The notes under the pieces were generated by a model. It ran no database searches and was not told the origin of the DNA. It saw only the letters and a program-made list of their open reading frames with translations. Both the position numbers and the translations under genes were made by a program. This document shows, one piece after another, positions 11,201 through 24,820 of a stretch of DNA of 50,172 nt; the first letter of the stretch is position 1, and every line of letters begins with the position of its first letter. Origin of the DNA: Chloroflexota bacterium (lineage in GTDB: Bacteria; Chloroflexota; Dehalococcoidia; Lucifugimonadales; UBA3495); the NCBI GenBank assembly GCA_026710825.1, contig JAPOQH010000016.1:1-50172 (forward strand), in the 5' to 3' direction.

Positions 11201-12729
11201 TCGAGCACGACATCGTAGTCGGCATTGTCCGGAATGGCCCCGCCGCTGGTGAGGGCCGCGATACGCGCTCCCCGGCGTCCCTTCAACACTTGATTGATGC
11301 CGTCCCGGTGCAGGTGTGCGCCGTTCCGTCCCTGCCGGGGCGCAAATCCCTGGGAAAGGGATGCAACAACCTGGTCGAACCGGTCCCGAGGCAGTTCCCG
11401 ATATGGGTAAGCCTTCCGGCACAAATCGAACAGCGCGTCCTCCTCCCAGTCCTCGGAGGCGCAGGCGGCCACCATCTGCTGGGCCATCACGTCCAGCGGC
11501 CAGGGCGGGATTACGAAGGTGTCCAGGTTTCCTTGCCGGAGCGCCCGGGACAGAGCGGCGCACTCCAGTAGTTCATCCCGGGTCAGGGGGAACAGATTGC
11601 CTTTTGGCACTCCCCCAACAGTGTGCCCCGATCGACCCACGCGCTGCACCAGCAACCCAATGGAACGGGGAGAGCCGATCTGGCAGACCAGGTCGATATC
11701 GCCAATGTCGATGCCCAGTTCTAGCGAGGCGGTGGCCACGCACACCTTCACCTGCCCGTTTTTCAGCTTCTGCTCGGCCGCCAACCGGGTGGCTCGGGAC
11801 AGGCTGCCGTGATGGGCGACCACCGCCTCCTCGCCCAGTCGGGCCGAAAGCTGGTGCGAGACTCGCTCCACCAGCCGACGGGTATTGACGAAGACCAGGG
11901 TGATGGCGTGGGTCTCCGTGAGCCCGGCGATCGCATCCAGGGTCTCACCCCAGATTTCATGGGTGGCGATGGGGCCAAGTTCCTGTGCCGGCAGCTGCAC
12001 GGACAGGTCGATCTTGCGGCGACTGCCCGTGTCCACAACAACGCAATCGGTATTTCCATCGGCGTCGATGTGCCGGTTGCCCACCAGGAAGCGTGCCATC
12101 TCGGACAATGGCCGCTGGGTGGCGGACAGACCAATGCGAGTGATGGGCTCCTCGGAAAGCTGGCACAACCGCTCAACCGACAGGGCCAGGTGGGCGCCAC
12201 GTTTGTCGTCGGCCACCGCGTGAATCTCGTCCAGGATCAGCGTTCTGACGTGCTTCAAGCCGCGCCGCCCGCTCTCCGAAGTGAGCAGTATGTACAGCGA
12301 TTCCGGCGTGGTGATCAGGATGTGCGGCGGCCGCTTGGCCATCTTCTGGCGTTCCGATGCGGGGGTGTCCCCGGTGCGCACCGTCGTGGTTATCTTAGGT
12401 ATCGGAGAGCCGGTCTCCTCGGCAAGGTTCGCGATCTCTTCCAGGGGTGTCGCCAGATTTTTCTGGATATCGTTGGACAGGGCTTTCAATGGCGAAACGT
12501 ACACCACCTGTGTCCCTTCGGGCAGACCGGTGTCCATGCCCTGCCGTACCAGTTGATCGATGCAGGTCAGGAAGGCGGTGAGGGTTTTGCCGGACCCGGT
12601 CGGAGCGGCGATCAGCGTGTGCCGTCCCTGGCCGATGGCCGGCCATCCGGTGGCCTGGGCCTCCGTCGGCGCGTCGAACCGGCTGCGGAACCAGCGTTGA
12701 ATGAGGGGATGGAACGAATCCAGAGACAT
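8224..12729 (-). CDS. lhr: Lhr-type superfamily-2 DEAD/DEAH helicase
   Basis: The 1501-residue length matches full-length bacterial Lhr (large helicase-related protein). This is an ATP-driven 3'-5' DNA or DNA:RNA translocase linked to DNA repair. Visible motifs are Walker A at 42-49 (APTGSGKT), DEIH at 167-170, SAT at 202-204, and motif VI region VQRVGRSGHTVGG. The Lhr-specific winged-helix/beta-barrel core follows, then a long C-terminal domain (from ~900) ending in PARFNLN-like sequence at the stop. A basic low-complexity linker (RKRAGRNGGPVSARSRSPRS) near 1290 separates the last domain. The ATG at 12729 follows an AT-rich stretch and is the only sensible start before SLDSFHPLIQRWF. It is a single gene transcribed away from the carboxymuconolactone-decarboxylase-like gene. 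Confidence 0.95.
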   Translation of the reverse strand: MSLDSFHPLIQRWFRSRFDAPTEAQATGWPAIGQGRHTLIAAPTGSGKTLTAFLTCIDQLVRQGMDTGLPEGTQVVYVSPLKALSNDIQKNLATPLEEIANLAEETGSPIPKITTTVRTGDTPASERQKMAKRPPHILITTPESLYILLTSESGRRGLKHVRTLILDEIHAVADDKRGAHLALSVERLCQLSEEPITRIGLSATQRPLSEMARFLVGNRHIDADGNTDCVVVDTGSRRKIDLSVQLPAQELGPIATHEIWGETLDAIAGLTETHAITLVFVNTRRLVERVSHQLSARLGEEAVVAHHGSLSRATRLAAEQKLKNGQVKVCVATASLELGIDIGDIDLVCQIGSPRSIGLLVQRVGRSGHTVGGVPKGNLFPLTRDELLECAALSRALRQGNLDTFVIPPWPLDVMAQQMVAACASEDWEEDALFDLCRKAYPYRELPRDRFDQVVASLSQGFAPRQGRNGAHLHRDGINQVLKGRRGARIAALTSGGAIPDNADYDVVLDPDGTFVGTVNEDFAIESMAGDIFLLGNTPWKIRRVESGRVRVEDAQGNLPTIPFWLGEAPGRTWELSDEITQLREGIDRLLDSPPDAESWLVSETGVSPEVARQLVAYLVEGKRVLGVVPSANRVVAERFFDESGGMQLVIHAPFGAAINRAWGMALRKRICRTFDFELQATATDDGLNFSLGPSMSFPLGDVFNYLSPNTVDEVLTQAVFQAPLYGTRWRWNASRFLALLRQTGGKKVPAPLQRMRSDDLLASVFPAQVQCQDNAMPGDIEPPDHPLVFETTRDCLTEAMDLEGLKRVLTSIRGGSIEVLARDTVQPSVFAHQILNAMPYAFLDDAPLEERRARAVTLRRALPEDASDLSALDPDAIRTESAYAWPAIRDADELHDALLTLGVAPPDELVVRTEMASREMILQWFEELARSGRVMLVTSPEGSTLWLDAEHATLVSAAYPAASVETVGDQPSRAILPRREQIETEGAVLHLVRGWAECSGPFTTNEMARLLCLPPSNVETAVVTLENEGLVLRGSFRAGVDEEEFCDRRILARIHRATVGRLRQEIEPVPQSSFMRFLFQWQYAATDWLTMGEGGLLDVIDKLQGFETAAASWESELLARRVRDYSPDLLDRLCTGGEVAWGRLSRGNNLASGVSAGQRAAALTRTSNITLALRESLDWLLDPAPEAVDSLTGAMAEILEILSTRGACFESDLIARTRRLPSDVEEALWQLVANGLVTSDSIAPLRARINGKPNRGRADRKRAGRNGGPVSARSRSPRSDSQPPASHRPRSQRQFSAGRWSLLESFDTTGDPNEAKAMQLLHRYGVVFPELLARERMAPRWRDLVRVYRRLEARGEIRGGRFVAGFVGEQFALPDVVATLREAHRATAPGVLEVVSACDPLNLAGIITPGERVPTQPGNRVVFRDGVPVASLEKGLVVNRSNADDDTMTAATNLLYGPIRPAQPERHQPLDAYGGSAQPAWPLPDRTTQEPAPAARFNLN

Positions 12730-12973
12730 GACCGGATTTTAACACAGCCCACCCGACGCGTATCTCTCGTGGAGACACCCGGACTGCCGGCGCGTCTATC
12801 GGCTAAAATGCCCCCACAGTCCATTGTAACTATCAGGCCCAGAATTCGGATGCAGGAACCCCGTCGGTTCCGGCGCTACCCGCCACGCTAGAGGATAGTC
12901 CTGTCGAGGAGCGCAATCGCGTTCAGGGCCATCACAATTGGGGAAGGTCCACAGCACGAAATGGAGTTTAGCA

Positions 12974-13726
12974 ATGAGTAAACGCGACGAACTCAGGCGC
13001 AAGGGCAATGAGATACGGGAACGCCTGCAACACGGCACCTATCCCGTGCGGGAGAGGCCCCGGGCGACCACCGGCATCCCGGGCCTCCGCAACTTTACCG
13101 GAGAGTCCATTTTCGGAGCGGTGTGGTCCAGACCTGGATTGGATATCCGTTACAGGATGCTTGCGACCTTATCTGTCCTGACGTCGCTCCAGCGCCTATC
13201 GCAGTTCCAGACCTACGTCCACAGCGCTCTGAACATGGGATTGAGCCCGGAGGAGATCCAGGAAGTACCGATCCATTGCTCCCTGTACGCCGGATTTCCT
13301 TCTGCGGTGAACTCCCTGGAACTGGTCCATGAGGCCTTCCGTGAGCGTGGTATCGAGGCGCCGCAGACAGAGGTTCCTGAGGTGAGTCTCGAGGAACTGG
13401 AGGAGCGAGGTCGTCAACTCCGGGATCAGTTGTTCGGCGTCGAGGGGCAGGGGGGTTACAACAGCGCGCTGATGGAACTCGCGCCCGACCTGCGAACGCT
13501 TACCTACCAGTACGGGTTCGGGGAAATCTTCTTCCGACCTGGCCTGGACCTGAAATCCCGTGTGGTGTGTACCACGGCCGCGCTGGTCGCGGTGCGGGCG
13601 GAGGGCCAGCTACGCAACTTCCTGAGGGCCGGTCCCCGAGTCGGCCTTTCTAAAGAGGAAGTGGTGGAGGTCTTGATTCAGACCGGAGGATACGCTGGCA
13701 ACCTTACTTATACCGAATTGGCCTGA
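12974..13726 (+). pseudogene. Carboxymuconolactone-decarboxylase-family protein, N-terminal ~97%, split by an integrated element
   Basis: The protein holds two carboxymuconolactone decarboxylase-like helical units, at about residues 45-125 and 165-250. These proteins act in aromatic-compound breakdown or as AhpD-like peroxidase partners. I see no CxxC, so the enzymatic role is uncertain. I chose the ATG at 12974 (MSKRDELRRKG) because GGAG stands just before it; an earlier in-frame Met at 12938 has no good site. The second unit breaks off after IQTGGYAG and runs into NLTYTELA and a stop encoded by element DNA. The missing end (YPSALNAISIAAEVWN) lies at 24770-24820 on the far side of the integrated element. 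It aligns with the first unit (YAGFPSAVNSLELVHEAF), so this was one gene before integration. Whether the shortened protein still functions is unknown. Confidence 0.88.
13691..13699 (+). repeat. Left attachment core (attL), inside the split gene
   Basis: TACGCTGGC encodes the Y-A-G where the host gene is interrupted; the partner at 24761-24769 is TTCGCCGGC. Seven of nine bases agree. A tyrosine-recombinase overlap would normally be identical, so the true crossover may be the shorter CGC-GGC region or one copy has mutated. Confidence 0.55.
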
Positions 13727-13802
13727 TTTTGTGCCTATTTACGCTTGACTACTATACCGGGGCGGTATAAAATCGGTATAAAACACAAGCGTAAAGGGTA
13801 TA
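13710..13802. promoter_or_regulatory. Cluster of CGGTAT(AAAA) sites at the left end, likely integrase arm sites and/or integrase promoter
   Basis: Between attL and the integrase start lie ATACCG at 13710-13715 and 13754-13759 (inverted), CGGTATAAAA at 13763-13772 and again at 13774-13783, and GGTATAAG at about 13796-13803. The 13-bp CGGTATAAAATCG at 13763-13775 recurs exactly at the right end (24702-24714). Repeated sites at both ends fit arm-type binding sites of a tyrosine integrase. The TATAAA-rich stretch could also act as the integrase promoter. Confidence 0.6.
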
Positions 13803-13806
13803 AGAT

Positions 13807-15045
13807 ATGACAACGAAATTGACGGCGGCAAGGGTTAGGGAAATCACCAAACCGGGGCATCATGCCGATGGTGGCGGGCTGTATTTGACGGTAGCGGCGA
13901 CGGGAACGAAATCATGGACCCTGCGCACAACCGTTGGCGGCACGCGGGTAATGCGCGGGTTGGGATCGGTCAAGAAACTGACGCTAGCGCAGGCGCGGAA
14001 ATCCGCCATCGCCAACAAAACCGCCTTGCGATCCGGCGGCACTCTCAAACCCGTGCCGGAACGGGTAGAGGCGGCAAAGAAATCCGACGTTCCGACGTTC
14101 GGGCAGGCTATGGAGATCGTACACGGCATATTGCGAAATCAATGGCGGCCATCGCACGCTAAAAAGTGGCTATCGGAGACACGTTACCACTTGGGCGATG
14201 CGTTGGGCAATGCGCCGATCAACGAAATCACGCGGGCGGAACTCGCGGACCTGCTGACACCAATCTATGCCAATCAGCCGGCGACGGCGGCGCGGTTGCG
14301 GGCGCGGTTGCGCCAGATATTCAATTGGGCAACCGCCATCGGGCATTGCCCGTACAGTCCGGCGGATGATGCCTTGAATTGGCTAATCGCCAAACCGCCG
14401 AAGGATGCGGACGCGGAACCCAATCACCGGGCGGCACTGCACCATAGCGAGGTTGCTGATGCGCTGTTGACCGTGCGTATGCGCCATGCCCGCGTTACCG
14501 AGAAAACGGACGCCGGAACGGAGTACCGCATAAACCGCCGGATCACGCCGCCGACCGGCTTTGCCCTGCAACTGGCGATACTGTGCGCTACCCGTGTTGG
14601 TGAGGCGGCAGGGGCGCATTGGGATGAAATAGATTGGGATAACCGCACCTGGACTTTGCCAGCATCGCGCACCAAGCAAAAGGCTACCAACGTCATACCG
14701 CTATCCGACGCGGCGATGGACGTGCTACGCCATGCGGCGCGGCAATTCGGCGGGCGGCAAGGTTGGGTATTCCCGACCAAAAAGGGTACGCCGGTATCAG
14801 CCAAGGCACTATCGGAGGCGGCGCGGGTTTTGCAGTTGGGATGCACGATGCACGGGTTCCGATCATCGTTCCGAGATTGGGCGGCAGAGACATACGGGCC
14901 GAATTGCCGGGATGCCGCCGAGAAACAACTAGGCCATGTTGTGGCAGGCATGACGGAACGGGCATACTACCGATCCCAACTGGTAGAGGAACGGCGCGAG
15001 ATCATGCAAGCGTGGGGCGATTACCTTACAGGGCAACCGTTTTGA
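13807..15045 (+). CDS. Tyrosine recombinase/integrase, P4-like
   Basis: This 412-residue integrase has an N-terminal arm-binding domain of the DUF4102 type (KLTAARVREITKPG, HADGGGLYLTV, GLGSVKKLTLAQAR). A SAM-like core-binding domain lies at about 95-190, and the catalytic domain follows. The active-site set is complete: R263 (ATRVGEAAG), H349 and R352 (MHGFRSSFRDWA), H377 (LGHV) and nucleophile Y387 (ERAYYRS). P4-like integrases usually target tRNA genes; here the element sits inside a protein-coding gene. The ATG at 13807 follows the row of CGGTAT sites, so the protein may bind next to its own start. It is transcribed in the same direction as the rest of the element, next to attL. Confidence 0.95.
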   Translation: MTTKLTAARVREITKPGHHADGGGLYLTVAATGTKSWTLRTTVGGTRVMRGLGSVKKLTLAQARKSAIANKTALRSGGTLKPVPERVEAAKKSDVPTFGQAMEIVHGILRNQWRPSHAKKWLSETRYHLGDALGNAPINEITRAELADLLTPIYANQPATAARLRARLRQIFNWATAIGHCPYSPADDALNWLIAKPPKDADAEPNHRAALHHSEVADALLTVRMRHARVTEKTDAGTEYRINRRITPPTGFALQLAILCATRVGEAAGAHWDEIDWDNRTWTLPASRTKQKATNVIPLSDAAMDVLRHAARQFGGRQGWVFPTKKGTPVSAKALSEAARVLQLGCTMHGFRSSFRDWAAETYGPNCRDAAEKQLGHVVAGMTERAYYRSQLVEERREIMQAWGDYLTGQPF

Positions 15046-15057
15046 CAACGATAGTGG

Positions 15058-15086
15058 TTTACCGGTTGCGAACGGCGTTCTAAAAT
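15058..15086 (+). promoter_or_regulatory. Candidate promoter with inverted-repeat operator in the element's leader region
   Basis: TTTACC (15058-15063) and TAAAAT (15081-15086) are separated by exactly 17 bp. The spacer ends with the inverted repeat GAACGGCGTTC (15070-15080), which would be covered by RNA polymerase and could be an operator. It is placed just after the integrase stop and would transcribe the rep gene. No repressor gene was found in the element, so any regulator would come from host or helper. Confidence 0.4.
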
Positions 15087-15089
15087 AAA

Positions 15090-15123
15090 AAGCACCTGCC
15101 ATATTCCAGTTTGGCAGGTGCTT
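15090..15123. terminator. Perfect 12-bp stem hairpin after the integrase gene
   Basis: Arms AAGCACCTGCCA (15090-15101) and TGGCAGGTGCTT (15112-15123) pair perfectly around a 10-base loop. An A-rich run on the left side makes it a good minus-strand terminator, while on the plus strand no T-run follows. A second hairpin, CGGCAAC/GTTGCCG (15125-15145), stands directly after it. Together they may form an attenuator or RNA-stability element in the leader of the rep gene. Confidence 0.5.
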
Positions 15124-15207
15124 ACGGCAACGGGCGTAGTTGCCGCTAACGCAACGAACCACGGGCAACGGTTCGGAGCGTGATACGCCATAAGTGGAGT
15201 TAGCACT

Positions 15208-16437
15208 ATGACGCTTGAAAAGTATAGCACGAATAACGATTTTTTATCGTTGTGCGAGGGCGCGGATTGTCAAGGCTGTGACGATTGCCCACAAACGCCG
15301 CTATCGGAGATATTCAACCGCCCTTACGCCGCTCCAACGTGGGTAGAGCAATACGCCGAACCGTCGCCGGCATGGTTCGCACACTATGAACGGTTGTATC
15401 TTTTGGAGGTTGGCGAAAATCCCAATGGACACGCCGCCGATTGCGAGTGCCGCGAATGTGAGCAATTCCGACCGGAACCCGCACCGGTCTATTACCGCGA
15501 TTTTGACATGGCGGAATGGCTAAACGTTGCAGACGATGATCTGCTTTGGCACTTGCCGATCCTTGCGCCATCGGGGTTGATAACCCTGCTATCCGCCGGG
15601 CCGAAATCCGGCAAAACGCAATTGTATTGGGGGTTGCTGTCGGAACTCCAACGGTTCGGCACAGTGCTGGGCGATAGGGTTGTGCCGGGATTGCGCGTTA
15701 CCGTATGGACCGAGGAACGGGCGCGGACGCTCAAACAAAAGCAAGCGGACGTGAAACTAGACGTTATCCCGAACTGGCGCATAGTCGGCGTTGGCGACCT
15801 GGAAAACCGCAATTGGGAATTGATGGTTGACGGCGCAATCTCCCAATGGAGCGAAACAGAACCGCCAGACGTGCTATTCATAGACACGATTGGAGATTGG
15901 GCACTCAACGATGATTGGAATGACTACGCCAAAGTCATCGCCGTTTTAGATCCGTTGAAACGACTAGCGACCACGTTCCCGCGCATGGCTATCGTTGGCG
16001 TACACCACAACCGCAAGGCGGCGGGCAATGCCGTTGACGCTGCTAGCGGTAGCAACGCCTTGACCGGCAAGGTTGACAACATCGTGAGCCTAGACAAAAC
16101 CGATAGTTGCGATGATTACACGCGCCGCCTCCGGTTCATGGGGCGCGTACAGCCGGACGGCATGGACGGCGTTGACCTGTATGTGCGGTTTGATCCTAGC
16201 ACCGGCACATACGCCAAAGAGCGCAAGGGCAAGGCTAACGAGGATGCGATCCTAGACCTGTTGCCCGATGCGCCAGACGGCATGACACCAAAGGAAGTAC
16301 ACGAGGCGTTGACTGCCGATGATGATGGCGGAAAACTGACGCTCGGCACAGTGCGGAACATTCTACGGCGGTTGCACGCCGCCGGAACAATCACGCGGAA
16401 CGGAACCGCACGGCTGTATGTATATGCACTCCCCTAG
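15208..16437 (+). CDS. RepA/RecA-fold ATPase with N-terminal Cys cluster and C-terminal winged helix (probable replication protein)
   Basis: This 409-residue protein has three parts. The N-terminal ~90 residues hold cysteines spaced as in a metal site (C16, C21, C24, C27 and C79, C81, C84). Residues ~115-330 form a RecA-like ATPase of the AAA_25/RepA type with Walker A at 130-137 (AGPKSGKT) and a Walker B-like LFIDTIGDW near 225. Residues ~345-409 look like a winged helix (MTPKEVHEAL ... NILRRLHAAGTITR). Proteins of this kind serve as replicative helicases or initiators of plasmids, phages and satellites. Its place right after the integrase and before the structural genes fits that role. Primase motifs are not seen. 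The protein's function is inferred from fold, not from a close homolog. Confidence 0.75.
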   Translation: MTLEKYSTNNDFLSLCEGADCQGCDDCPQTPLSEIFNRPYAAPTWVEQYAEPSPAWFAHYERLYLLEVGENPNGHAADCECRECEQFRPEPAPVYYRDFDMAEWLNVADDDLLWHLPILAPSGLITLLSAGPKSGKTQLYWGLLSELQRFGTVLGDRVVPGLRVTVWTEERARTLKQKQADVKLDVIPNWRIVGVGDLENRNWELMVDGAISQWSETEPPDVLFIDTIGDWALNDDWNDYAKVIAVLDPLKRLATTFPRMAIVGVHHNRKAAGNAVDAASGSNALTGKVDNIVSLDKTDSCDDYTRRLRFMGRVQPDGMDGVDLYVRFDPSTGTYAKERKGKANEDAILDLLPDAPDGMTPKEVHEALTADDDGGKLTLGTVRNILRRLHAAGTITRNGTARLYVYALP

Positions 16438-16460
16438 TAATCGGAGCGTGCGTGCATATA

Positions 16461-16540
16461 GCAAGGGCCAAGGGCCGTGCCTGCCCTTGCCATTGCTAGA
16501 TTAGGGATTGGCGGTATGTGCATACATGGGTCAATCCCTA
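16461..16540. promoter_or_regulatory. Two hairpins between the replication and packaging genes
   Basis: The first hairpin has arms GCAAGGGC (16461-16468) and GCCCTTGC (16483-16490). The second is nested: outer arms TAGGGATTG (16502-16510) and CAATCCCTA (16532-16540), inner arms GTATG and CATAC (16514-16525). The 139-bp gap carries no gene. The cruciform-like structure beside the rep gene may be a replication origin, a regulator binding site or a terminator. The sequence alone does not decide. Confidence 0.45.
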
Positions 16541-16576
16541 ATAGAATGAACATGAACACACAACGGAGGTTGAACG

Positions 16577-16855
16577 ATGGAATACAGATTTCAATACCAG
16601 GTGAAACGACCCGGCGCGAAAGTGAAACCAGCGGATATGACGGTCCAATGTGAAAACGAACCAGGCATAGATCACGTTGACTGCGCTGTTGCGCTGCTTG
16701 CCGCTGCGGTCCAGGCCTTGGAAAAAGAGAAACTGCTATGCCGGGAGGACAAGGACCGGCGGAATAGCCTTGTCAAAATGTGTGGCGAATTGACGGTCAT
16801 ACGCGAGACGCTTGAGAGATTGCCGCTTGAGGAGAATAGCCCTGCCGCTGACTAA
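16577..16855 (+). CDS. Small unknown protein before the large terminase
   Basis: This acidic, mostly helical 92-residue protein has a good ribosome binding site (GGAGG, 8 bases before ATG). The middle (VDCAVALLAAAVQALEKEKL) and the end (LTVIRETLERLPLEEN) could form amphipathic helices. It stands where a small terminase subunit is commonly encoded, directly before the large subunit, but I see no helix-turn-helix and do not recognise the family. It could be a small terminase, a recruitment factor or a regulator. Confidence 0.7.
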   Translation: MEYRFQYQVKRPGAKVKPADMTVQCENEPGIDHVDCAVALLAAAVQALEKEKLLCREDKDRRNSLVKMCGELTVIRETLERLPLEENSPAAD

Positions 16856-16923
16856 CGGACGTTTTTGGGACCCTGGCGCGAAATTCGCGCCGGGGCACCG
16901 ATGAGCGCGGAGGGGAGTAATCT

Positions 16924-18357
16924 ATGCACAACGCCTTTACCCCGTTGCCATTCCAACAGGACTTTGTGCGGCACGCTACCGATCCGGAGATCACGATTGC
17001 CGCGCTCACGTTGCCCAGGGCGAACGGGAAAACGACGTTGGCGGGTTGGCTTGCCGCGCGGATGATGACACCGGGCGATGATCTCTGGTATCCCGGCGCG
17101 GAAAACGTCATGGTTGCCGCCTCCATGCCGCAGGCGCGGATAGCGTTCAATGTCATGCGCGGTTTCCTGGGCGATGATAACGCCTACGCCTACACGGATA
17201 CCGCCAACCGGATTTCGGCGCGGCACAAGGAAACCCGTACCGCGTTCCGGCTGATCGGATCAAACGGCAAGACCGCGATGGGGTTGCTCAACACGAGATA
17301 CGCCATTTGCGACGAGCCCGGTGCTTGGGAGCAGTTATCGGGCGCGTTGGTATGGACCGCGCTAGACACGGCGCGCGGCAAACCGGATAGCCCGTTGACG
17401 CTGATAGTCGTTGGCACGCTTGCGCCGCATGGCGTACCGGGCAATTGGTGGCGCGATCTGGTAGAGGATGGCACGCGCAACGACATATACGTAAAGTCAT
17501 TGCAGGGCGATCTAAACCGTTGGGATGATCTCCGGCACGTTTATAGCGTCAACCCGTTGGCGCGGCACTATCCCGAACTGCGCAAGCAACTGCGGATAGG
17601 GCGGGATGAGGCGCGGATGGACCCGCGCAAGAAAGCGGACTATCTCTCGTACCGCCTTAATATTCCGAGTGCCGACGAATCAACGATGCTGTTAGACACG
17701 TCGGATTGGTTGGCTACTCTGGCGCGGGAAACACCGGACCGCGAAGGCCGGCCGGTTGTTGGCGTTGACCTGGGCGGCGGTAGGGCATGGAGCGCGGCGG
17801 TAGCGATATTCCCGAACGGCCGCACAGAGGCAATCGCCGTCGCCCCCGGCGTGCCGGACCTGGCCGATCAGGAACGGCGGGATCGTGCGCCCGGTCAATA
17901 CCAGAGGTTGCTAGACAACGGGCAACTGATAATCGCGCATGGTAAGCGCGTGCCGCCGGCCGAGATCGTAACTAACGCCATACGAGCCAAATGGGGCAGG
18001 CCAAAATCGGTAACGCTAGACCGGTTCCGCCTTGCCGACATACAGGATGCTGATAGCAAGTTGCGCTACGATCCGCGTGTTACCCGATGGAGTGAGGCCA
18101 GTGCGGACATTCGCGCCCTGCGCAAAATGGCAAAGGATGGACCGCTATCGGTTGATTCAGAATGCGCCTTGTTGGTGTCTGCAAGCCTATCGGTAGCGAT
18201 GGTGAAAAACGACGATCAAGGATCATTCCGACTGGTGAAACGTGCCAACAATAATCAATGCCGAGATGACGTTGCCAGTGCGTTGACGTTGGCGGCGGGC
18301 GCGTGGGACCGGTCCAGCAAAAAGCGCACGTCGGGGGTATATCTTGGGTTGGCGTAG
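16924..18357 (+). CDS. Terminase large subunit (HK97-like)
   Basis: This 477-residue terminase is the motor and nuclease that packs DNA into the procapsid. The ATPase half has Walker A-like PRANGKTT at 31-38 and Walker B YAICDEPGA with D130/E131. The nuclease half starts near 275 with GVDLGGGRAW (D282, metal-binding) and ends with the late acidic motif CRDDVASALTLAAGAWDR. The length is typical. It starts at ATG 16924 after GGAG, and its 3' end overlaps the HNH gene by 14 bp. A following HNH protein is usual for cos-type HK97-like packaging systems, so cos-type packaging is likely. The upstream unknown protein may be the partner subunit. Confidence 0.93.
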   Translation: MHNAFTPLPFQQDFVRHATDPEITIAALTLPRANGKTTLAGWLAARMMTPGDDLWYPGAENVMVAASMPQARIAFNVMRGFLGDDNAYAYTDTANRISARHKETRTAFRLIGSNGKTAMGLLNTRYAICDEPGAWEQLSGALVWTALDTARGKPDSPLTLIVVGTLAPHGVPGNWWRDLVEDGTRNDIYVKSLQGDLNRWDDLRHVYSVNPLARHYPELRKQLRIGRDEARMDPRKKADYLSYRLNIPSADESTMLLDTSDWLATLARETPDREGRPVVGVDLGGGRAWSAAVAIFPNGRTEAIAVAPGVPDLADQERRDRAPGQYQRLLDNGQLIIAHGKRVPPAEIVTNAIRAKWGRPKSVTLDRFRLADIQDADSKLRYDPRVTRWSEASADIRALRKMAKDGPLSVDSECALLVSASLSVAMVKNDDQGSFRLVKRANNNQCRDDVASALTLAAGAWDRSSKKRTSGVYLGLA

Positions 18358-18634
18358 CACTCCATTACAGGGTAAGCGATGGCAACGAATAAGGCGGCGC
18401 GTATTTGAGCGCGACGGCAATAGGTGTCGGGAGTGCGGTAGCGCACGGCAATTGGAGTGCGACCATATCACCAGTTTATTTAGTGGGGGCGAACCCTGGG
18501 ATATGCGTAACCTTCAAACGCTATGCCGCGATTGCCACATTCGGAAATCGCGCATGGAACGGCGCAAACCCGATCCGCAACGTGCCGCGTGGGATGTACT
18601 GATACAGGATATGATGGCGCATGGTGTAAAATAA
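18344..18634 (+). CDS. HNH endonuclease (terminase-associated)
   Basis: This 96-residue protein has zinc-binding pairs C28/C31 (CREC) and C61/C64 (CRDCH). The HNH triad region reads ECDHITSLF (D40-H41), NLQTL (N56) and CHIRKS (H65). Phage HNH proteins next to the large terminase help cut the packaged concatemer in cos systems. The likely start is TTG at 18344, overlapping the terminase end; no ATG in this frame precedes the zinc region. Overlap and direction put it in the packaging operon. Confidence 0.88.
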   Translation: MGWRSTPLQGKRWQRIRRRVFERDGNRCRECGSARQLECDHITSLFSGGEPWDMRNLQTLCRDCHIRKSRMERRKPDPQRAAWDVLIQDMMAHGVK

Positions 18635-18673
18635 AAGTAAGCCCGTGCGTAACTAAACCGGCAACGGGCGGAG
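18627..18673 (+). promoter_or_regulatory. Leader element before the capsid gene, copy of the one before the rep gene
   Basis: TAAAATAAAA (18627-18636) is followed by a hairpin with arms GCCCGT (18641-18646) and ACGGGC (18664-18669). The block CGGCAACGGGCGGAG (18659-18673) includes the ribosome binding site of the capsid gene. The same order, TAAAATAAAA, hairpin, CGGCAACGGGCGTAG, is found at 15081-15139 before the rep gene. This probably marks a shared promoter or translational control point. Confidence 0.5.
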
Positions 18674-18680
18674 TTTTAGA

Positions 18681-19916
18681 ATGACACCGTTGCAGAAATT
18701 AGAGGTAAGGGCGAGCGATATTCGCGGCAGGCTTGCGGAGATTGGCGGGCTGTCGGCAGACGAAATTACCGACGAGGTTCGGTCGGAACTGGCGACGTTG
18801 CGCCGTGAGCATACGGATAACGAATCTCAACAGACGGCGTTGAGAATGGCGGGCGCGGAACCCACGCCCGTTGAAACCCGGTCAGAGGATCGGGATATGG
18901 ACAACCTGCGCAGCAGGGTTGGGTTTTCGCCCTACGTTACCGCCGCGCTTGCCGGCCGTCCGGTGTTGACCGGGGCCGAGGCGGAATACAACACAGAGCG
19001 CGGCATTCCCGAAGGGCATTTCCCGCTTGAATTGTTGGGCGGTCCATTGCTGGAAACTCGCGCCGCACGCGATGGCGACGGGCGTACCGAGCAAGGATCA
19101 TGGCTTGACCGGATTTTCGCCAATTCCGCCGCTAGTCGGGTTGGTATCAGTTTCCGGGACGTGCCGGCCGGCGTGGTTGCCTATCCCGTAACGACTGCAG
19201 GCGGTAGTGCCGTCATGCGCGGGCGCACGGAAGCGGTAACGGAAAGTACCTACACCATCGCCGTAACCGAAATCAAACCCGCCCGTGCCGCCGTTCACGG
19301 TGTCTATTCGGTAGAGGATGATGCACGCTTGCCGGGCATGGCAGACGCCATTGAGCGCGATATGCGTATGGCAGTGGTTCACGACATTGACTTGATGGTA
19401 TTCAAGGGCGATAGCGGCGCGAACGAAACCGCCGCAGACGTAACCGGAATGCAGACGGCAAGCATTACCGAATCGACGATCACGCAGACGAATAAGGTAA
19501 AGGCTGACGAAACGCTCAAAACCTTTGTGAGCCTGGTTGACGGCGAGTATGCGTCTGCCATGTCCGACGTGCGGATTGTTACCAGCGTTGGCGCGAATAC
19601 CCTTTGGTATTCCACCATCCATAACAGCGCGGCAGACAATCAGACCATCGCCCAATTCCTGATGGCTAGCGGTATGTCCTGGACCGCACGAGGTGGCATT
19701 GACACCAATACCGCCAACGGCGACTTTGGCGCATACGTTGGGCTGGCTAACGGGTTGGAGGGCGCGGGTATCGCCGCCGTCTGGAATAGCGGATCGTTGA
19801 TTAGAGACCCCTACACCAAGGCGGATACCGGAGAGGTGAAATTGACGCTCAACTATCTGTGGCAACTGGCGTTTCCACGGACCGCCAATTTCAAGCGCGT
19901 CAAGTTTGTAACCTAA
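18681..19916 (+). CDS. Major capsid protein, HK97 fold with N-terminal delta domain
   Basis: This 411-residue protein has a helical, charged N-terminal part (residues 1-~75, with LEVRASDIRGRLAEI and TDNESQQTALRMAG) like the scaffolding delta domain that the prohead protease removes. From about residue 75 it continues as an HK97-type capsid body. It ends with QLAFPRTANFKRVKFVT. The fold call rests on architecture, size and the adjacent S78 protease, not on a conserved short motif. The start codon follows GGAG at 18670 and a leader hairpin, which fits strong expression. The capsid gene comes before its protease, opposite to the usual HK97 order. Confidence 0.82.
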   Translation: MTPLQKLEVRASDIRGRLAEIGGLSADEITDEVRSELATLRREHTDNESQQTALRMAGAEPTPVETRSEDRDMDNLRSRVGFSPYVTAALAGRPVLTGAEAEYNTERGIPEGHFPLELLGGPLLETRAARDGDGRTEQGSWLDRIFANSAASRVGISFRDVPAGVVAYPVTTAGGSAVMRGRTEAVTESTYTIAVTEIKPARAAVHGVYSVEDDARLPGMADAIERDMRMAVVHDIDLMVFKGDSGANETAADVTGMQTASITESTITQTNKVKADETLKTFVSLVDGEYASAMSDVRIVTSVGANTLWYSTIHNSAADNQTIAQFLMASGMSWTARGGIDTNTANGDFGAYVGLANGLEGAGIAAVWNSGSLIRDPYTKADTGEVKLTLNYLWQLAFPRTANFKRVKFVT

Positions 19917-19917
19917 A

Positions 19918-20511
19918 ATGGACGGTTTCGGCGTATGGCCGGGTAGCCTTGAAATCCGGCAAGAGGGCGGGGCGCGCGTACTGCTAGGCACGTTTCCCTA
20001 TGGCACGTTGGCGACGATCTCGGATCGTGGCACTGTCCGCAAGGAAACGATATTGCCGCGTGCGTTCCGCTACGCCATAGAAGAACGTGAACGCAAGATT
20101 GATCTGTTAGTCGGGCATGAGTTTGGCAAACCGATTGCCAGCAGGCAAAGCGGCACGCTTGCGATTGCAGATAGCGATGATGCGGTCACTTTTGAGGCGA
20201 CATTGCCACCGGAGGAACTCACGCCGTCATGGGTTACGGACGCAGAAAAGGCAATCGCCAACGGCACAATGACCGGCCTATCGCCGGGATTCAGAGTGCC
20301 GCCGCGCAACGTCGTCGCCAATGGCGAATCGCTTGCGCCGGAACCTGGAAACCCAGGCGTGATGATCCGGCAAGTAAGGGCAGGCGTGTTACGTGAAATG
20401 TCCGTTGTAACGGCCGGCGCTTACGTTGACGCTTTTGTGGAGTTGCGCGCCGAACTATTCCCGCAGGCTAACGCCGTGATACTGCCGGGGGCAATGACAC
20501 TATGGCTATAA
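19918..20511 (+). CDS. Prohead protease, peptidase family S78 (HK97 type)
   Basis: This 197-residue protease cleaves capsid delta domains during maturation. The fold is seen in GTVRKETILPRAFRYAIEE, catalytic H67 (LLVGHEFGK) and catalytic S122 (MTGLSPGFRV). The C-terminal block LREMSVVTAGAYVDAFVE is standard for the family. It begins one base after the capsid stop codon and ends inside the next gene (10-bp overlap), so translation is coupled. Complete and apparently active. Confidence 0.92.
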   Translation: MDGFGVWPGSLEIRQEGGARVLLGTFPYGTLATISDRGTVRKETILPRAFRYAIEERERKIDLLVGHEFGKPIASRQSGTLAIADSDDAVTFEATLPPEELTPSWVTDAEKAIANGTMTGLSPGFRVPPRNVVANGESLAPEPGNPGVMIRQVRAGVLREMSVVTAGAYVDAFVELRAELFPQANAVILPGAMTLWL

Positions 20512-22952
20512 CCGTTACGGTTGACGATCTCCTAACCGAACTGCGGTTGACCGACACAACCCAAGAGCGCGAACTCGCAACGCGGCGATTGGCCTACGCC
20601 AGTCAAGCGGTAGCGGACTATTTGCGGGATGCGTTTGACGACGTGCCGGATGCGGTAGTCAACGAGGCGACAATTCAGATTGCCGGATACCGCTACGATC
20701 AACCGCTTGCGCCTATGGGTAGCGGTTACGCCAATGCCCTGCGGAACTCCGGGGCGGGCCGGACCTTGCTACCGTATCGGATTCACCGTATCGGCATTGC
20801 TGACGTTGCCGAGGTGTCAACGGCGGTTGGCAGCGCGGTCAATCCGGTTACTGACGTTGACTATTCCGGCGACGTGCTGACCGTCCTATATGCCGACGGC
20901 ACTAGCGAAACGTTCACCATTACGCAAGGCAGCGGCGGCGGGCCTAACAGTAGCCGTGATTTGATTGTTGACGTGCTGGGTACGGTTGACATTCAGTTAT
21001 CGCTTACCCGCGCATGGACCGCAACCGGAATTACTGTGCCGGCAACAACTGACGCAATCTTGATTGACACGTCTGCGGCGACCATTGATTACCACGTTGT
21101 TGACTGGAAGGCGGTCAGGGATGACACCGAAGCAGTCGCCGGTCAAACAAGTATGGACGGTGAGTTTGAAACGTTTATCACCGTGCTACCGACCGGCACA
21201 TCTCACACGTTGCGGATTGGGCATACCGCAGACAATGAAATATTGCTTGCCGATGATGCTGTTACCGGCGGCGTGAATATCCCGCGTGTGCGGGTTGAGC
21301 GGTTCCTTGCGCCGGTTGCGGAGGTGGGCGGCGGTAGCACGCCGGTTACGCCAGTAAGCCCGTTCAACGGTACGGCGTATGCCTATTGGGAGACTGTGCC
21401 GCGTGATCCCGCCGACCGCAACGCCGGGGCGCAAATCCCGCCTGCTATTCCGGCGGGCGCAAGTTTCAACGTCATAACCTATGGCGAACTGGACTTTGAC
21501 ATATCGCCGCCGTCTGCCGCTTTTTCTGATAACGGTTGGCCTGTATTCATGCAACCCGTTGGCAATCCGATACCGGCGTTTAGATTGTCCAACCCGTCCG
21601 CTTTTGGGTTTAGCATACTATTCGGCCAGCAACCGGAAACGGTGACGTTTAGCGGCATTACTTATAATTGGTGGACCTTGCTACCGGATCAAGGGGCGCG
21701 GTTTTACGGCACTCGGATTTTGCACGCCAATTACGGCGAGGAACCTATCCCGCCCAACGCGGATCAGGTAGCGCGGGATGCTGCTAGCGCGGCGCAAGCA
21801 ACGGCGGATAGCGCGGTTGCGGACGCTGCTACGGCACAGGCGGCGGCAGACGGGGCGCAAGCAACCGCCGATAGCGCGCAAGCAATCGCCAATACCGCAC
21901 AAACGGACGCGGCGACGGCACAGAGCGCGGCGACGGCGGCACAGACAACCGCCGATAGCGCAACGGCGGCGGCAACCGCCAACGCGGGTAGCATCGCCCT
22001 ACGTTTGGAGCGCGGCGACATCAGGCCGGGAACGGGTATCACCATCACGCCAACGGCGGGCGATGATACGGAACTCACGATCTCGGCAAGCACCAGCGGC
22101 GGCGCGTTTGACCTTGCCGGAACGTGGGATTACATCACCGGCGACCAATTGAACCCGGACCCCGGCGAAGTGCGTTACACCGCCAACGCCGTACCGCCCA
22201 ACGCCGATACCTGGCTATTCAACGTGAGCGGCAACGCGCCGGGTGCCGTGCAATTGCTAGACCTTGCCAGCGGCGATATGGTGGAGATAACCCAAAGTAG
22301 CAGCCGACACCAGACGGTTACGGTCAACGCGGTTCCTACGCAATCCGGCAGCATCATTACCGTTACGGGAGTTGCCGACCGCGCAAGCGGATCACAGATA
22401 CCCAATCACAATGCCAGCGTAACAATCCAGATAGTACCGGCGGCAGCGGCGGGCATTGACCTTGTGGCGCGTGAAAGCGCGGCAACGGCACAGACTACGG
22501 CAGCGGCGGCGCAAACGACGGCGGATAGCAAGGTTGCCCAAACCGCTTACAACGCTCACATTGCCGATCCGAGCGCGCACCACGTCAAAACACCGGCGGG
22601 AGGTGGCGGCGGGCCGTCGCTTGTCGGAACCGCAAGCATTACGGACGGGGCGGGTAGCGCATGGCATGATACCGGGTTTGCGCCGTCGGCAACGTCAACC
22701 CTGCTAGGCATAGGGTTGACCGGGTTGGCTATGACGCTCGGAGGTGTCAATACCGACGCATGGCCTATGGCGTGGTATGACGCAAGCGATTGGCGGGCGG
22801 TAAGCGCAACGGCGGCGACGGGACGGCTCAATTTCCGCGTTGGCAATGCAACGCTAATCGGGTTGGTGGGCCGCAACGCTAGCGGCAATGTGCAATTCCG
22901 ATGGACCGGAACGACTGCCCAATCATTCAACGTAAAGGTTTGGCAATTGTAA
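20502..22952 (+). CDS. Fusion of gp6-like head-tail connector and fibre/receptor-binding protein
   Basis: This 816-residue protein combines parts normally on separate proteins. Residues 1-~100 look like a gp6-type head-tail connector (VTVDDLLTELRLTD, YASQAVADYL, DAVVNEATIQIAGYRYD, LLPYRIHRIG). A short beta module follows (DYSGDVLTVLYADGTSETFTI), typical of fibres. Residues ~145-420 are beta-rich and unassigned. Two Ala-rich heptad-like stretches, ~421-503 (repeats of ATADSAQA type) and ~655-690, look like trimeric coiled coils. Residues ~704-816, after a GGGG linker, form a beta-rich tip ending NVKVWQL, like a receptor-binding domain. The frame is continuous, and the start overlaps the protease gene. 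This suggests a fibre mounted directly on the portal/connector ring. Domain edges are estimates. Confidence 0.75.
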   Translation: MAITVTVDDLLTELRLTDTTQERELATRRLAYASQAVADYLRDAFDDVPDAVVNEATIQIAGYRYDQPLAPMGSGYANALRNSGAGRTLLPYRIHRIGIADVAEVSTAVGSAVNPVTDVDYSGDVLTVLYADGTSETFTITQGSGGGPNSSRDLIVDVLGTVDIQLSLTRAWTATGITVPATTDAILIDTSAATIDYHVVDWKAVRDDTEAVAGQTSMDGEFETFITVLPTGTSHTLRIGHTADNEILLADDAVTGGVNIPRVRVERFLAPVAEVGGGSTPVTPVSPFNGTAYAYWETVPRDPADRNAGAQIPPAIPAGASFNVITYGELDFDISPPSAAFSDNGWPVFMQPVGNPIPAFRLSNPSAFGFSILFGQQPETVTFSGITYNWWTLLPDQGARFYGTRILHANYGEEPIPPNADQVARDAASAAQATADSAVADAATAQAAADGAQATADSAQAIANTAQTDAATAQSAATAAQTTADSATAAATANAGSIALRLERGDIRPGTGITITPTAGDDTELTISASTSGGAFDLAGTWDYITGDQLNPDPGEVRYTANAVPPNADTWLFNVSGNAPGAVQLLDLASGDMVEITQSSSRHQTVTVNAVPTQSGSIITVTGVADRASGSQIPNHNASVTIQIVPAAAAGIDLVARESAATAQTTAAAAQTTADSKVAQTAYNAHIADPSAHHVKTPAGGGGGPSLVGTASITDGAGSAWHDTGFAPSATSTLLGIGLTGLAMTLGGVNTDAWPMAWYDASDWRAVSATAATGRLNFRVGNATLIGLVGRNASGNVQFRWTGTTAQSFNVKVWQL

Positions 22953-23317
22953 TGCCGGCGGACCGCCCGATTGCGTTGACCTACACCACGCCGCCAACGC
23001 GCAACGATCATGGCGAGGATGTGCCGGGAACTCCAACGCTTTACAACGTATGGGGTACGCGGCGCGATGGCGATAGCACTTACACATTTGAGGTTGGCGG
23101 CACACGCGGCAGCGTGGTACGGCGTTACCGTATCCGATGGTTTTTGGAGATCGCAAACGTTGCGCCGTCAACGCTCACATTCACGGACGGCACGCTAGAC
23201 AACGCCGGCGACGAAATCACCTTTACCGTTACAAACAAGGCGGAGGTTACGGCGCAACGGCGCGGTCAAGACCTACGCCGCCGCTGGTTAGACATTGAAG
23301 CCATTTGGAGCGCGTAA
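22952..23317 (+). CDS. Head closure/head-tail adaptor-like protein
   Basis: This 121-residue beta-rich protein (MPADRPIALTYTTPPTRNDH ... WLDIEAIWSA) has the size and pattern of gp16/HK97 gp7-like head-tail adaptors that close the portal. The ATG overlaps the stop of the connector-fibre gene (TAATG), and its own stop overlaps the portal start in the same way. The assignment rests on size, the start pattern RPIALTY and neighbours, so a different neck protein is possible. Confidence 0.62.
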   Translation: MPADRPIALTYTTPPTRNDHGEDVPGTPTLYNVWGTRRDGDSTYTFEVGGTRGSVVRRYRIRWFLEIANVAPSTLTFTDGTLDNAGDEITFTVTNKAEVTAQRRGQDLRRRWLDIEAIWSA

Positions 23318-24423
23318 TGTGGATACCCTGGAAACGCAGTCAACCCGCGCTTGAACGGCGTAGCAGTAGCAGTTACGAAACGGCCCTACTCCGGTTGCTG
23401 TTAGAGCAAGCGGACGGCGTAGAGCGTGCCGCACAGACGGCGACGGGTATGCTTGAATCATGCGCCGGAACGGTTGGCCGGGCATTTGCGGCGGCGGACG
23501 TTGAATCCGATAGCCCGATGGTAACGCAAGCAATCACGCCGGAGCTCATGATGATGATCGGCCGCGCTTTCATCCGCGACGGGCAATCGGTTTTCTATAT
23601 TACAACCGATGGCGGATCATTGATGCTGTTGCCCGCGACGGAATACAACGTTACGGGCGGTCCTATGCCGTCTGATTGGAGTTATGATCTCACCGTCGCC
23701 GGCCCGTCAATCCAGCAAGCCTATACGGACATACCCGCCGAAAGCGTGTTGCATTTCCGGTACGCCGCCGATCCGCACCGGCCTTGGATGGGCAATGCGC
23801 CGCTCCGAGTAGCCTATCTTGCCGGGAAACTTTCCGCCGAAACTATCCGCGTACTAGCAGACGAATCAAGCAGCGCGGTCGGTTCATTGTTGGGTATCCC
23901 TGTTGATGGCGACGATCCTACGGTTACGAAACTCAAAGCGGACCTGCGCACGGCAAAAGGCAATGTTGGCCTGATTGAAAATGGCGACTGGGGCAACGTT
24001 GGTGAAGGCGCGGTTGACTTGACGCCGCGACGGTTCGGGCCGAACCCGCCGGCCGCGTTGGTGTCGTTGGTAGAGCAGGCGCGGTTAGAGGTTGTGAGCG
24101 CGTGCGGAATGAATATCGCCCTATGGGGCGCGGGCGATGCAGCATCCGTCCGTGAGGCGTACCGCCTGTTGCTGTTTAGCGTGCTATCACCATTGGGCAA
24201 GATCGTACAAACCGAGTTGACCGCCAAGATCGGCTATGGGTTGACGCTGACATGGGAGGAACTCCGGGCGGCGGATATTCAAGGCAGGGCGCGGAGTTTT
24301 CAATCAATCGTTGGCGGCGGCGCAACCGTAGAGAGCGCGGCGCAAGAGGTGGGATTTAGGTACATCAAACCCAAGCCGGAACCTACGGGGGCGAATGATG
24401 CAATGCAGGAAACAGGGATGTAA
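23317..24423 (+). CDS. Portal protein, HK97 type
   Basis: This 368-residue protein would form the dodecameric ring at the capsid vertex through which the terminase moves DNA. Family-like blocks include FIRDGQSVFYITT, the IPAESVLHFRYAADPHRPWMGNAP segment read in part as VLHFRYA and PWMGNAPL, and the clip/stem region ESSSAVGSLLGIP. The C-terminal helical block is VREAYRLLLFSVLSPLGKIV. The start at 23317 overlaps the preceding stop (TAATG). It is shorter than many portals (~400). The gene stands last among the head genes, not between terminase and protease as in HK97, so the late region is rearranged. Confidence 0.82.
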   Translation: MWIPWKRSQPALERRSSSSYETALLRLLLEQADGVERAAQTATGMLESCAGTVGRAFAAADVESDSPMVTQAITPELMMMIGRAFIRDGQSVFYITTDGGSLMLLPATEYNVTGGPMPSDWSYDLTVAGPSIQQAYTDIPAESVLHFRYAADPHRPWMGNAPLRVAYLAGKLSAETIRVLADESSSAVGSLLGIPVDGDDPTVTKLKADLRTAKGNVGLIENGDWGNVGEGAVDLTPRRFGPNPPAALVSLVEQARLEVVSACGMNIALWGAGDAASVREAYRLLLFSVLSPLGKIVQTELTAKIGYGLTLTWEELRAADIQGRARSFQSIVGGGATVESAAQEVGFRYIKPKPEPTGANDAMQETGM

Positions 24424-24631
24424 CGGCGGGTATATCCGATCCGACACCTGCTATAAGTGCGGGCATGATCGGCAACCCAAGTTGACCGGCGTAGAGGCGC
24501 GGCAACACCATAGGGCGGGCGGCAACGCACGCGGGCCGATTGGAGATCATTACTACCGGCGCGGCGAAATATCGTTTGCCACACGCGACCCGATCCGGCT
24601 AACCCATGCCTACGCATACGACGGTCAATAA
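24395..24631 (+). CDS. Small zinc-ribbon-like protein, last gene of the element
   Basis: This 78-residue protein has four cysteines in a C-x4-C ... C-x2-C pattern (C4, C9, C19, C22: MMQCRKQGC and CYKCGHD), a likely zinc site. The rest is rich in His, Arg and Tyr and is unrecognised. Two adjacent ATGs (24395 and 24398) lie inside the portal gene's 3' end, so translation is coupled. It could bind DNA or another protein. A strong terminator follows 15 bp after the stop. Confidence 0.6.
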   Translation: MMQCRKQGCNGGYIRSDTCYKCGHDRQPKLTGVEARQHHRAGGNARGPIGDHYYRRGEISFATRDPIRLTHAYAYDGQ

Positions 24632-24645
24632 CCGCCGGTCAACGC

Positions 24646-24689
24646 ACCCGCCGCCCTGCTGACTTGTCCGGGGCGGCGGGTGTTTTTTT
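24646..24689 (+). terminator. Strong rho-independent terminator of the late operon
   Basis: ACCCGCCGCCC (24646-24656) pairs perfectly with GGGCGGCGGGT (24671-24681) around a 14-base loop and is followed by seven T (24683-24689). It ends transcription of the structural operon just before attR. Confidence 0.92.
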
Positions 24690-24691
24690 GT

Positions 24692-24740
24692 GGTATAAGA
24701 CCGGTATAAAATCGCCCTAGATTGCGGCGATTTCATACCG
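24692..24740. promoter_or_regulatory. CGGTATAAAATCG arm-type sites at the right end
   Basis: GGTATAAG (24692-24699) and CGGTATAAAATCG (24702-24714) stand in direct orientation, with inverted ATACCG at 24735-24740. The 13-mer is identical to 13763-13775 at the left end, as expected for integrase arm sites in attP before integration. Confidence 0.6.
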
Positions 24741-24760
24741 ATTTAGTAGGGGTTAGGGTA

Positions 24761-24820
24761 TTCGCCGGCTATCCGTCAGCGCTGAACGCCATCTCCATAG
24801 CAGCCGAGGTCTGGAACTGA
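24761..24820 (+). pseudogene. C-terminal fragment of the split carboxymuconolactone-decarboxylase-like gene (attR side)
   Basis: Read in frame, the sequence TTC GCC GGC TAT CCG encodes FAGYPSALNAISIAAEVWN and stops with TGA at 24818-24820. This matches the end expected for the gene broken at 13699, by homology to its own first half (YAGFPSAVNSLELVHEAF). The first nine bases (24761-24769) are the attR copy of the attachment core. No ribosome binding site precedes it, so it is not expected to be expressed alone. Confidence 0.85.

Follow-up and report, generated by a model that had tools for sequence, protein, structure and literature searches.

Described capsid-forming satellites and small capsids

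Several described systems combine small genomes with capsid genes. The cfPICIs are integrated elements that possess their own capsid genes and are thought to use the tails of helper phages, according to excerpts of a review (PMC11389934). The cf-PISP of Vibrio, as portrayed in parts of PMC13230959, is a circular, tail-less, capsid-forming satellite-plasmid with a replication gene, and Mulch and Flayer, satellites of Streptomyces phages, are reported in sections of PMC10690885 to encode encapsidation machinery. For small tailed phages, T=3 capsids have been predicted over an interval of 8.1-17.1 kb, and the smallest of 23 measured capsids was a T=4 shell with a 17-kb genome, as given in passages of PMC7762592 (2020). 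The elements treated in the portion of PMC12324425 consulted are different ones of 4.6 kb. None of the literature matches listed presented a satellite in Chloroflexota or a fusion of an adaptor to a fibre.

The window, a stretch of 50,172 nucleotides from a Chloroflexota bacterium (contig JAPOQH010000016.1), carries an element that is read here as an integrative capsid-forming phage satellite working like a cfPICI, with a probability of roughly 0.7. The best reading of the group to which it belongs is that of fibre-necked capsid-forming satellites that borrow both tails and lysis from a helper. Capsid-forming satellites have been described, in the literature sections cited here, from cultured bacteria, and the present group extends the plan to uncultured hosts labelled with several phyla.

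Boundaries and insertion site

The element measures 11,070 bp, the spacing of two imperfect 10-bp att cores, attL ATACGCTGGC (13690..13699) and attR ATTCGCCGGC (24760..24769), which are identical at eight of ten positions and were located by comparing the flanks with orthologues. The first-pass annotation had set the limits at 13691..24769, which fall on these cores. The insertion has replaced the 3' end of a host gene of the carboxymuconolactone-decarboxylase family (12938..13726, forward strand), assigned from orthologues and from NCBIfam PcaC-type matches that all lie below their cut-offs, and the product at present has the C-terminus ...GGYAG-NLTYTELA*. The severed original 3' end, encoding ...FAGYPSALNAISIAAEVWN*, lies at 24760..24820 on the forward strand, as judged against ten orthologues. 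The site is empty in all ten close same-genus orthologues (L026-L035; 83-90% identity), where both flanks match; in two of them (L029 and L033) the matched frame is interrupted by a single stop at another position, and a close orthologue is absent from three of the 13 other genomes of the genus (G007, G017 and G018). A repeat search found repeats of GGTATAAAAT at 13763..13806 and, at the right end, GGTATAA repeats with an inverted repeat at 24692..24740, and both sets are perhaps arm-type integrase sites.

Five of the ten gene junctions within the element overlap, by 10-52 bp, and the coding share is approximately 94% by arithmetic with overlaps subtracted. The view that gene overlaps and intact frames speak against decay is borne out and is joined by similarly sized relatives found elsewhere and in circular form. 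That the element is what is left of a larger, now defective tailed prophage is highly improbable: such copies do decay, as in relative L014, where the terminase large subunit (TerL) is split into three frames, and distant TerLs (24-31%) occur in tailed phages, namely Clostridioides phage AR1074-1, as judged from its record, and G275, with a gene in its stretch L047 that looks like a tape measure by eye, but the open overlapping frames, the presence of both attL and attR, the insert-free orthologues and the relatives elsewhere that agree in gene content and size led to this reading being set aside.

Genes for integration, replication, packaging and the capsid

All of the element's genes lie on the forward strand. 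The first encodes a tyrosine integrase with an arm-binding domain (412 aa; 13807..15045), matching PF13356, PF22022 and PF00589 (3.5e-15) as well as phrog_1 (5.4e-53). An AAA_25 ATPase follows (409 aa; 15208..16437), with matches to PF13481 (1e-9), the primase/helicase family phrog_239 (7.7e-6) and phrog_2440 (0.0061); its C-terminal region is weakly winged-helix-like, and the protein is read here as RepA-like. A small protein of 92 aa (16577..16855), with no Pfam match and a phrog_25030 match of 0.15, is a candidate small terminase by position. TerL (477 aa; 16924..18357) matches phrog_9 (4.4e-37), and the window copy has no Pfam match, although five of the 11 aligned TerL members match PF20441 TerL_nuclease at E<=1 (best 2.7e-8). 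It is overlapped by an HNH endonuclease gene (96 aa; 18344..18634; PF01844 4e-9, phrog_589 7.8e-22).

The major capsid protein (411 aa; 18681..19916) is assigned to the HK97 type through family members and a family profile, the window copy itself having no Pfam match. PF05065, which serves as the cfPICI capsid family in PMC13230959, is matched by five of eight aligned capsid family members at E<=1 (best 4e-8); the copy in L010, 39% identical to that of the window, matches the major head protein family phrog_10 (8.7e-14), and the family profile matches the solved major capsid protein 8eck (0.0028). An S78 prohead protease (197 aa; 19918..20511) is supported by PF04586 (3.6e-14) and by TIGR01543 (1.4e-12, below its cut-off). 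The portal protein (372 aa; 23305..24423) matches PF04860 below the cut-off (8.4e-8), and its family profile matches the solved phage portal 9i8c (8.3e-5). The last gene encodes a small cysteine-containing protein (78 aa; 24395..24631) that is zinc-finger-like by eye and had no NCBIfam match.

Like a cfPICI, the element is integrated, with both an integrase and att sites, and itself encodes terminase, capsid, protease, portal and connectors. The earlier assignments of integrase, replication ATPase, terminase, HNH, capsid, protease, head closure and portal are all supported by Pfam, PHROGs or family profiles.

A neck adaptor with a fibre-like extension

The gene at 20502..22952 encodes an 816-aa protein in which residues 1-96 form a gp6-type head-tail adaptor, residues 420-494 a coiled coil, and the remainder is variable and fibre-like. 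This protein had been called a connector, which holds for the adaptor and misses its fusion to about 700 fibre-like residues, a region with weak tail-fibre matches (phrog_13481, 0.0078). Adaptors extended in this way make up five of the 14 examined in the element family, the window's included and L009, where no adaptor was called, standing outside the count. The fusion distinguishes the present elements from cfPICIs, and the description of cf-PISP in the consulted parts of PMC13230959 includes no such fusion.

Downstream lies a head-closure protein (stopper, Hc1-like; 138 aa; 22901..23317), which matches PF05521 below the cut-off (0.0064) and aligns to its L024 counterpart at 35% identity. The head-closure protein of L010 belongs to phrog_25, and a Neck1 protein (phrog_5) is present in L042, with weak matches in L007 and L043; none was recognised in the window copy. 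The head-closure and Neck1 proteins of the relatives would be the parts that meet a tail, and the lack of a recognised Neck1 protein in the window copy counts against the satellite reading.

A fibre on the element's own neck is unexpected if the host is recognised by the helper tail, and this counts against the satellite reading; the fusion also suggests that parts for recognising the host can sit on a satellite's neck, separately from the borrowed tail. The fibre fusion with its variable ends and the lack of a recognised tail-tube gene could be taken to indicate a satellite that enters through attachment by its neck fibres and receives only lysis, and perhaps replication, from a helper. This is quite improbable, given the Neck1 proteins of relatives. 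No HK97-type head is known to eject DNA without a tube, which also counts against such entry.

Tail, lysis and regulatory genes

Ten window genes gave no tail-tube, tape-measure, baseplate or lysis match against PHROGs at E<=1, and the eleventh, the 78-aa gene, gave none against NCBIfam. The tail module (tube, tape measure, tip) of an autonomous Caudoviricetes phage was not found in the window element. A transmembrane scan of the element flagged just two frames, both antisense to genes, and no plausible holin. No repressor, AlpA or Stl-like regulator was recognised in the window copy by PHROGs or Pfam, a further difference from cfPICIs that counts against the satellite reading. The reported lack of tail, lysis and repressor genes stands for the window element as a lack of recognised ones, the weak tail-fibre matches within the adaptor fusion aside, and a single-gene lysis protein may have escaped recognition.

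Profile searches of every gene had been proposed, and the outcome differs between the window, where no tail-tube or lysis match appeared, and the relatives. Among 30 proteins of relatives compared with PHROGs there was no lysis match, and a tail-tube gene was present only in L010, an element of unfixed ends with a phage major tail protein gene (41% identical over 99%), which speaks against the earlier proposal. Small ORFs with membrane segments lie in gaps beside genes in L043 (7891-8103) and L007 (16702-17043) and could be holins, which would weigh against the satellite reading. AlpA scored above the Pfam cut-off in four relatives (L007, L008, L012 and L042), a likeness to cfPICIs, with HTH_17 outscoring AlpA in L012 and L042.

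Head genes without recognised tail-tube or lysis genes, together with small relatives and a fibre on a neck part, indicate that the element probably borrows a phage tail, and from its genes we infer helper dependence and the following particle. After induction, or infection by a helper, the integrase would excise the element, and the ATPase would help to replicate it. TerL with HNH would cut unit-length genomes and pack these by way of the portal into a small HK97 capsid, probably T=3, that the element encodes itself and whose neck the adaptor-fibre protein and the stopper would close. Once filled, the head would take a helper siphophage tail and leave by helper lysis, while the adaptor-borne fibre would extend outward from the neck and give the element additional receptor contacts of its own.

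Relatives and their distribution

Related elements are present in the family of the window's bacterium, in a second family of that phylum, and in MAGs labelled Alphaproteobacteria, Gammaproteobacteria and Bryobacterales, such uncultured hosts with labels from several phyla setting the group apart from cfPICIs. L001 agrees with L007 in all its matches and proteins and was not counted separately, and L044 (29%, short match) was not counted as a member. Three relatives are flanked by 13-15 bp repeats at tRNA genes (L008, 9,589 bp; L012, 10,222 bp; L013, 10,343 bp), and three are circular IMG/VR contigs (L021, 9,930 bp; L024, 9,410 bp; L043, 10,416 bp). A search for syntenic elements of 10-12 kb at other sites had been proposed, and those found are close to that size (9,410-10,416 bp). 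Gene order varies in some: TerL follows the portal in L009 and is encoded on the opposite strand in L022 and L042. Capsid, protease, adaptor and stopper all precede the portal, which is last, in the window and in most relatives. Such a portal-last order is not known from cfPICIs.

The seven elements with known ends, the window's included, span 9.4-11.1 kb, which differs from cfPICIs. In these seven maps the scanned proteins, with small and right-end ORFs covered in part, included none recognised as tail tube, tape measure or baseplate, and a full tail module was seen with no member of the TerL group (45-57% identity), so that neither of the two observations named earlier as refuting the proposal was made. 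The circular L021 and L043 resemble cf-PISP, which differs in its size of about 15 kb, its parA/repA maintenance and its restriction to Vibrio in the account given in parts of PMC13230959. The likeness to Mulch and Flayer, by description only, lies in the encoded encapsidation machinery (PMC10690885, in part). All seven sizes lie among the genome lengths for which T=3 HK97 shells are predicted, a property shared with small tailed phages; the four isolates named in the passages of PMC7762592 are podo- or siphoviruses, whereas no tail-tube gene was recognised in the present element. Because the sizes vary so little, whether HK97 capsids of T=3 occur can be put to a direct test.

TerL relatives occur in four of 50 family genomes and capsid relatives in four of 400 genomes of a phylum sample, the window's own counted in each. 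The capsid, portal and adaptor-fibre had no tblastn match in 50,697 phage records, where TerL had one weak match (24%). The TerL tree (14 rows, L014 omitted) requires at most one forced change of host label and the portal tree (13 rows, L009 and L022 omitted) three; the capsid tree (14 rows, L023 omitted) requires four for Chloroflexota-type hosts, a label that takes as few changes in 500 of 500 shuffles. L046 was omitted from all three. One tentative and rather unlikely alternative is a virus, or a satellite resembling one, of HK97 type that lacks a tail and enters by its own neck, with a gp6-type adaptor ring bearing long variable receptor-binding fibres, a genome of approximately 10 kb and a T=3 shell, its design passing among bacterial phyla. 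If true, it would involve a shell size that is uncharacterised for the HK97 fold in the consulted passages of PMC7762592.

Search for a helper phage

No helper was identified, which counts against the satellite reading, although the profile searches are insensitive; the suggestion that helper prophages might reside in the same genome accordingly found no support with PF10145, PF04860 or PF05065. PF10145 had no match in the genome itself and one below-cut-off match among 50 family genomes, and seven of 14 control genomes matched. PF05065 matched only contig C15. The PF04860 and PF05065 searches miss the window's own portal and capsid, and so both would overlook a divergent helper.

The earlier proposal of a capsid-forming satellite or minimal virus is supported by the head and packaging set and the like-sized relatives, with the satellite favoured and the minimal virus kept as an alternative. 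A self-sufficient virus with a small HK97 capsid, a fibre-bearing neck adaptor, tubeless DNA delivery and lysis by an unrecognised single-gene product would accord with the adaptor-fibre fusions, the lack of a recognised resident helper, the membrane-segment ORFs of L043 and L007, and the three circular genomes, which have no relative of the window's integrase and of which one encodes a primase and another a replication initiator. It is nevertheless unlikely, as no lysis match was found in the proteins compared with PHROGs, no replication gene was recognised among the scanned L024 proteins, the AlpA of four relatives is of PICI type, and both the Neck1 proteins and the single major tail protein suggest that a real tail is contacted.

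PF04860 matched only contig C104 in the same genome, a TerL-portal pair among host genes, and this conserved pair occurs elsewhere in the bacterial family. The pair could suggest a domesticated cluster akin to a gene transfer agent, which is barely plausible for the window element in view of its integrase, its att sites and its patchy distribution; the reading was set aside, the locus not being a non-mobile, vertically kept cluster. A piece of a tailed phage is present in the same genus (L067), occupying 13 kb of an 18-kb contig.

Integration site and gene content

The element lies between the two copies of an imperfect 10-bp repeat, a left att core at 13690-13699 (ATACGCTGGC) and a right att core at 24760-24769 (ATTCGCCGGC), the spacing of which gives an element length of 11,070 bp; the boundaries of the first-pass annotation (13691-24769) agree with these cores and are accurate. 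The gene at the left flank is of the carboxymuconolactone-decarboxylase family (NCBIfam matches below curated cut-offs), and its last residues are severed by the insertion, a short replacement end being provided by the element. A close orthologue is missing from three of the 13 other genomes of the genus, and the site was compared in the remaining ten (83-90% identity), all of which align to both flanks and are insert-free at the site; two carry one stop elsewhere in the aligned frame.

All 11 genes lie on the plus strand and encode an integrase, an AAA ATPase, a 92-aa unknown protein, TerL, HNH, capsid, S78 protease, adaptor, head closure, portal and a 78-aa cysteine-containing protein, with overlaps of 10-52 bp at five of the ten junctions. 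HNH genes adjoining TerL are typical of cos packaging. The window capsid has no Pfam match of its own; five of eight members of its family matched PF05065 (E<=1; best 4e-8), the copy in the relative L010 matched phrog_10 (8.7e-14), and the family profile matched a solved major capsid protein (0.0028). Among the relatives, head closure was recognised in L010 (phrog_25, 2.8e-6) and Neck1 (phrog_5) in L042 (6.8e-7), L007 (0.0031) and L043 (0.017). No regulator was recognised in the window copy, and AlpA scored above the Pfam cut-off in L007, L008, L012 and L042. The element likely works like a capsid-forming phage-inducible chromosomal island (cfPICI) and may or may not belong to the cfPICIs proper.

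Tail genes and candidate helpers

An absence of tail and lysis genes had been proposed for the element; ten of its 11 genes gave no tail-tube, tape-measure, baseplate or lysis match in PHROGs, and the eleventh product had no match in an NCBIfam search. L010 encodes a 201-aa protein (11744-12349) that shares 41% identity with the Sinorhizobium phage StopSmel major tail protein (E 2e-40), its gene sitting between HNH and capsid, and no tape measure was seen among the L010 ORFs. This protein is the group's one result contrary to a lack of tail genes, and fits contact with a siphophage-type tail. Small ORFs with membrane segments, in gaps beside genes of L043 (7891-8103, minus strand) and L007 (16702-17043, minus strand), could be candidate holins.

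Profile searches of the window's genome gave no PF10145 match and a sole PF04860 match, in a TerL-portal pair on contig C104 (L041 7989-9260 and 9251-10795, minus strand). Of 50 family genomes, 34 have PF04860 portals, 31 of them as a single match. C104-type portals are 67-80% identical across four compared loci; their neighbours are host genes, and neither a capsid nor a tail gene was seen next to the pair, which may be a domesticated or GTA-like packaging unit. The PF04860 search missed the window's own portal, and so a divergent helper could escape detection too. The same genus also holds part of a tailed phage or prophage (L067, G008 C64), in which profiles matched a portal and, weakly, a tape measure, and in which HNH, TerL, capsid and a tail-protein-like gene were discerned by eye; it is a possible helper type. 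The helper need not be resident, since, according to PMC11389934, the cfPICI EcCIEDL933 was detectably mobilised by none of the 17 prophages of its source strain. A separate PF05065 capsid-like match is present in the window's genome (L068, G000 contig C15:72328-72651).

Element sizes and proposed cycle

A search for syntenic elements of 10-12 kb at other sites had been proposed; elements close to that size exist at three tRNA genes, with repeats at tRNA-Ser (L008, 9,589 bp), tRNA-Asn (L012, 10,222 bp) and tRNA-Arg (L013, 10,343 bp). Three IMG/VR contigs of 9,930, 9,410 and 10,416 bp have identical terminal repeats (99, 99 and 127 bp, respectively) and are read as circular; in L024 and L043 the TerL frame is intact on either side of the circle junction, and the window's integrase has no relative in any of the three. 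PMC7762592 predicts genomes of 8.1-17.1 kb (mean 11.78 kb) for T=3 HK97 capsids, with means of 8.1 and 8.9 kb for the adjacent smaller lattices, and describes satellite P4 as carrying 11.6 kb in a T=4 shell. All seven element sizes lie within the T=3 interval, and the adjacent smaller lattices may also be compatible. One element would correspond to one packaged genome.

From the observed genes, sites, circular contigs and sizes, we infer a cycle in which the element would excise and then replicate, a self-encoded small head would be assembled and a unit-length genome packaged, and the neck would be closed before a helper tail is joined, with exit by helper lysis. The fibre would project from the neck and could contribute receptor contact. 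It is unlikely that this fibre is the whole entry apparatus; if it were, the element would represent a novel type of virus or satellite.

Distribution of relatives

TerL relatives are present in four of 50 family genomes, the window's own included: two at 45-57% identity and one, decayed, at 39%. Relatives at 45-57% also occur in IMG/VR and in MAGs titled Rhodospirillaceae, Rhodospirillales, Alphaproteobacteria, Gammaproteobacteria and Bryobacterales. Across 400 sampled genomes of the phylum, own included, TerL matched in seven (the six others at 25-36%) and capsid in four (two in another family at 52-54%, one at 25%). One of the two other-family genomes (L046) has TerL, HNH, capsid, protease and portal matches and, by eye, an integrase; no tail gene was seen on reading the stretch.

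With MAG titles as host labels, and with Chloroflexota for the window's genome adopted from the first-pass inference, the window capsid clusters with Proteobacteria-titled, Bryobacterales and IMG/VR members (support 100/100), and three others of its family fall in the opposite half of the tree. The well-supported branches force four changes of the Chloroflexota label in the capsid tree; three are forced in the portal tree and at most one in the TerL tree.

Gene order is variable, TerL lying downstream of portal in L009 and on the opposite strand in L022 and L042. L014 (G019 C9; 10065-11498, minus strand) is a decayed copy in which TerL is broken up into three reading frames; its 20-kb stretch gave no integrase match, while the adaptor-fibre frame (682 aa) remains open. 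Five relatives encode a P-loop protein from a gene located between those for capsid and protease (L010 13573-14034, L012 13215-13643, L009 7329-7766, L014 7949-8575 and L043 2283-3044), and the L012 protein, the sole copy scanned with PHROGs, matched the C-terminal region of phrog_4581 (terminase small subunit; 1.5e-5). A distant TerL (29% identity over 90%) lies in an unannotated stretch of a large plasmid from the alphaproteobacterial isolate Pseudorhodobacter turbinis (NZ_CP039965.1 398015-399331).
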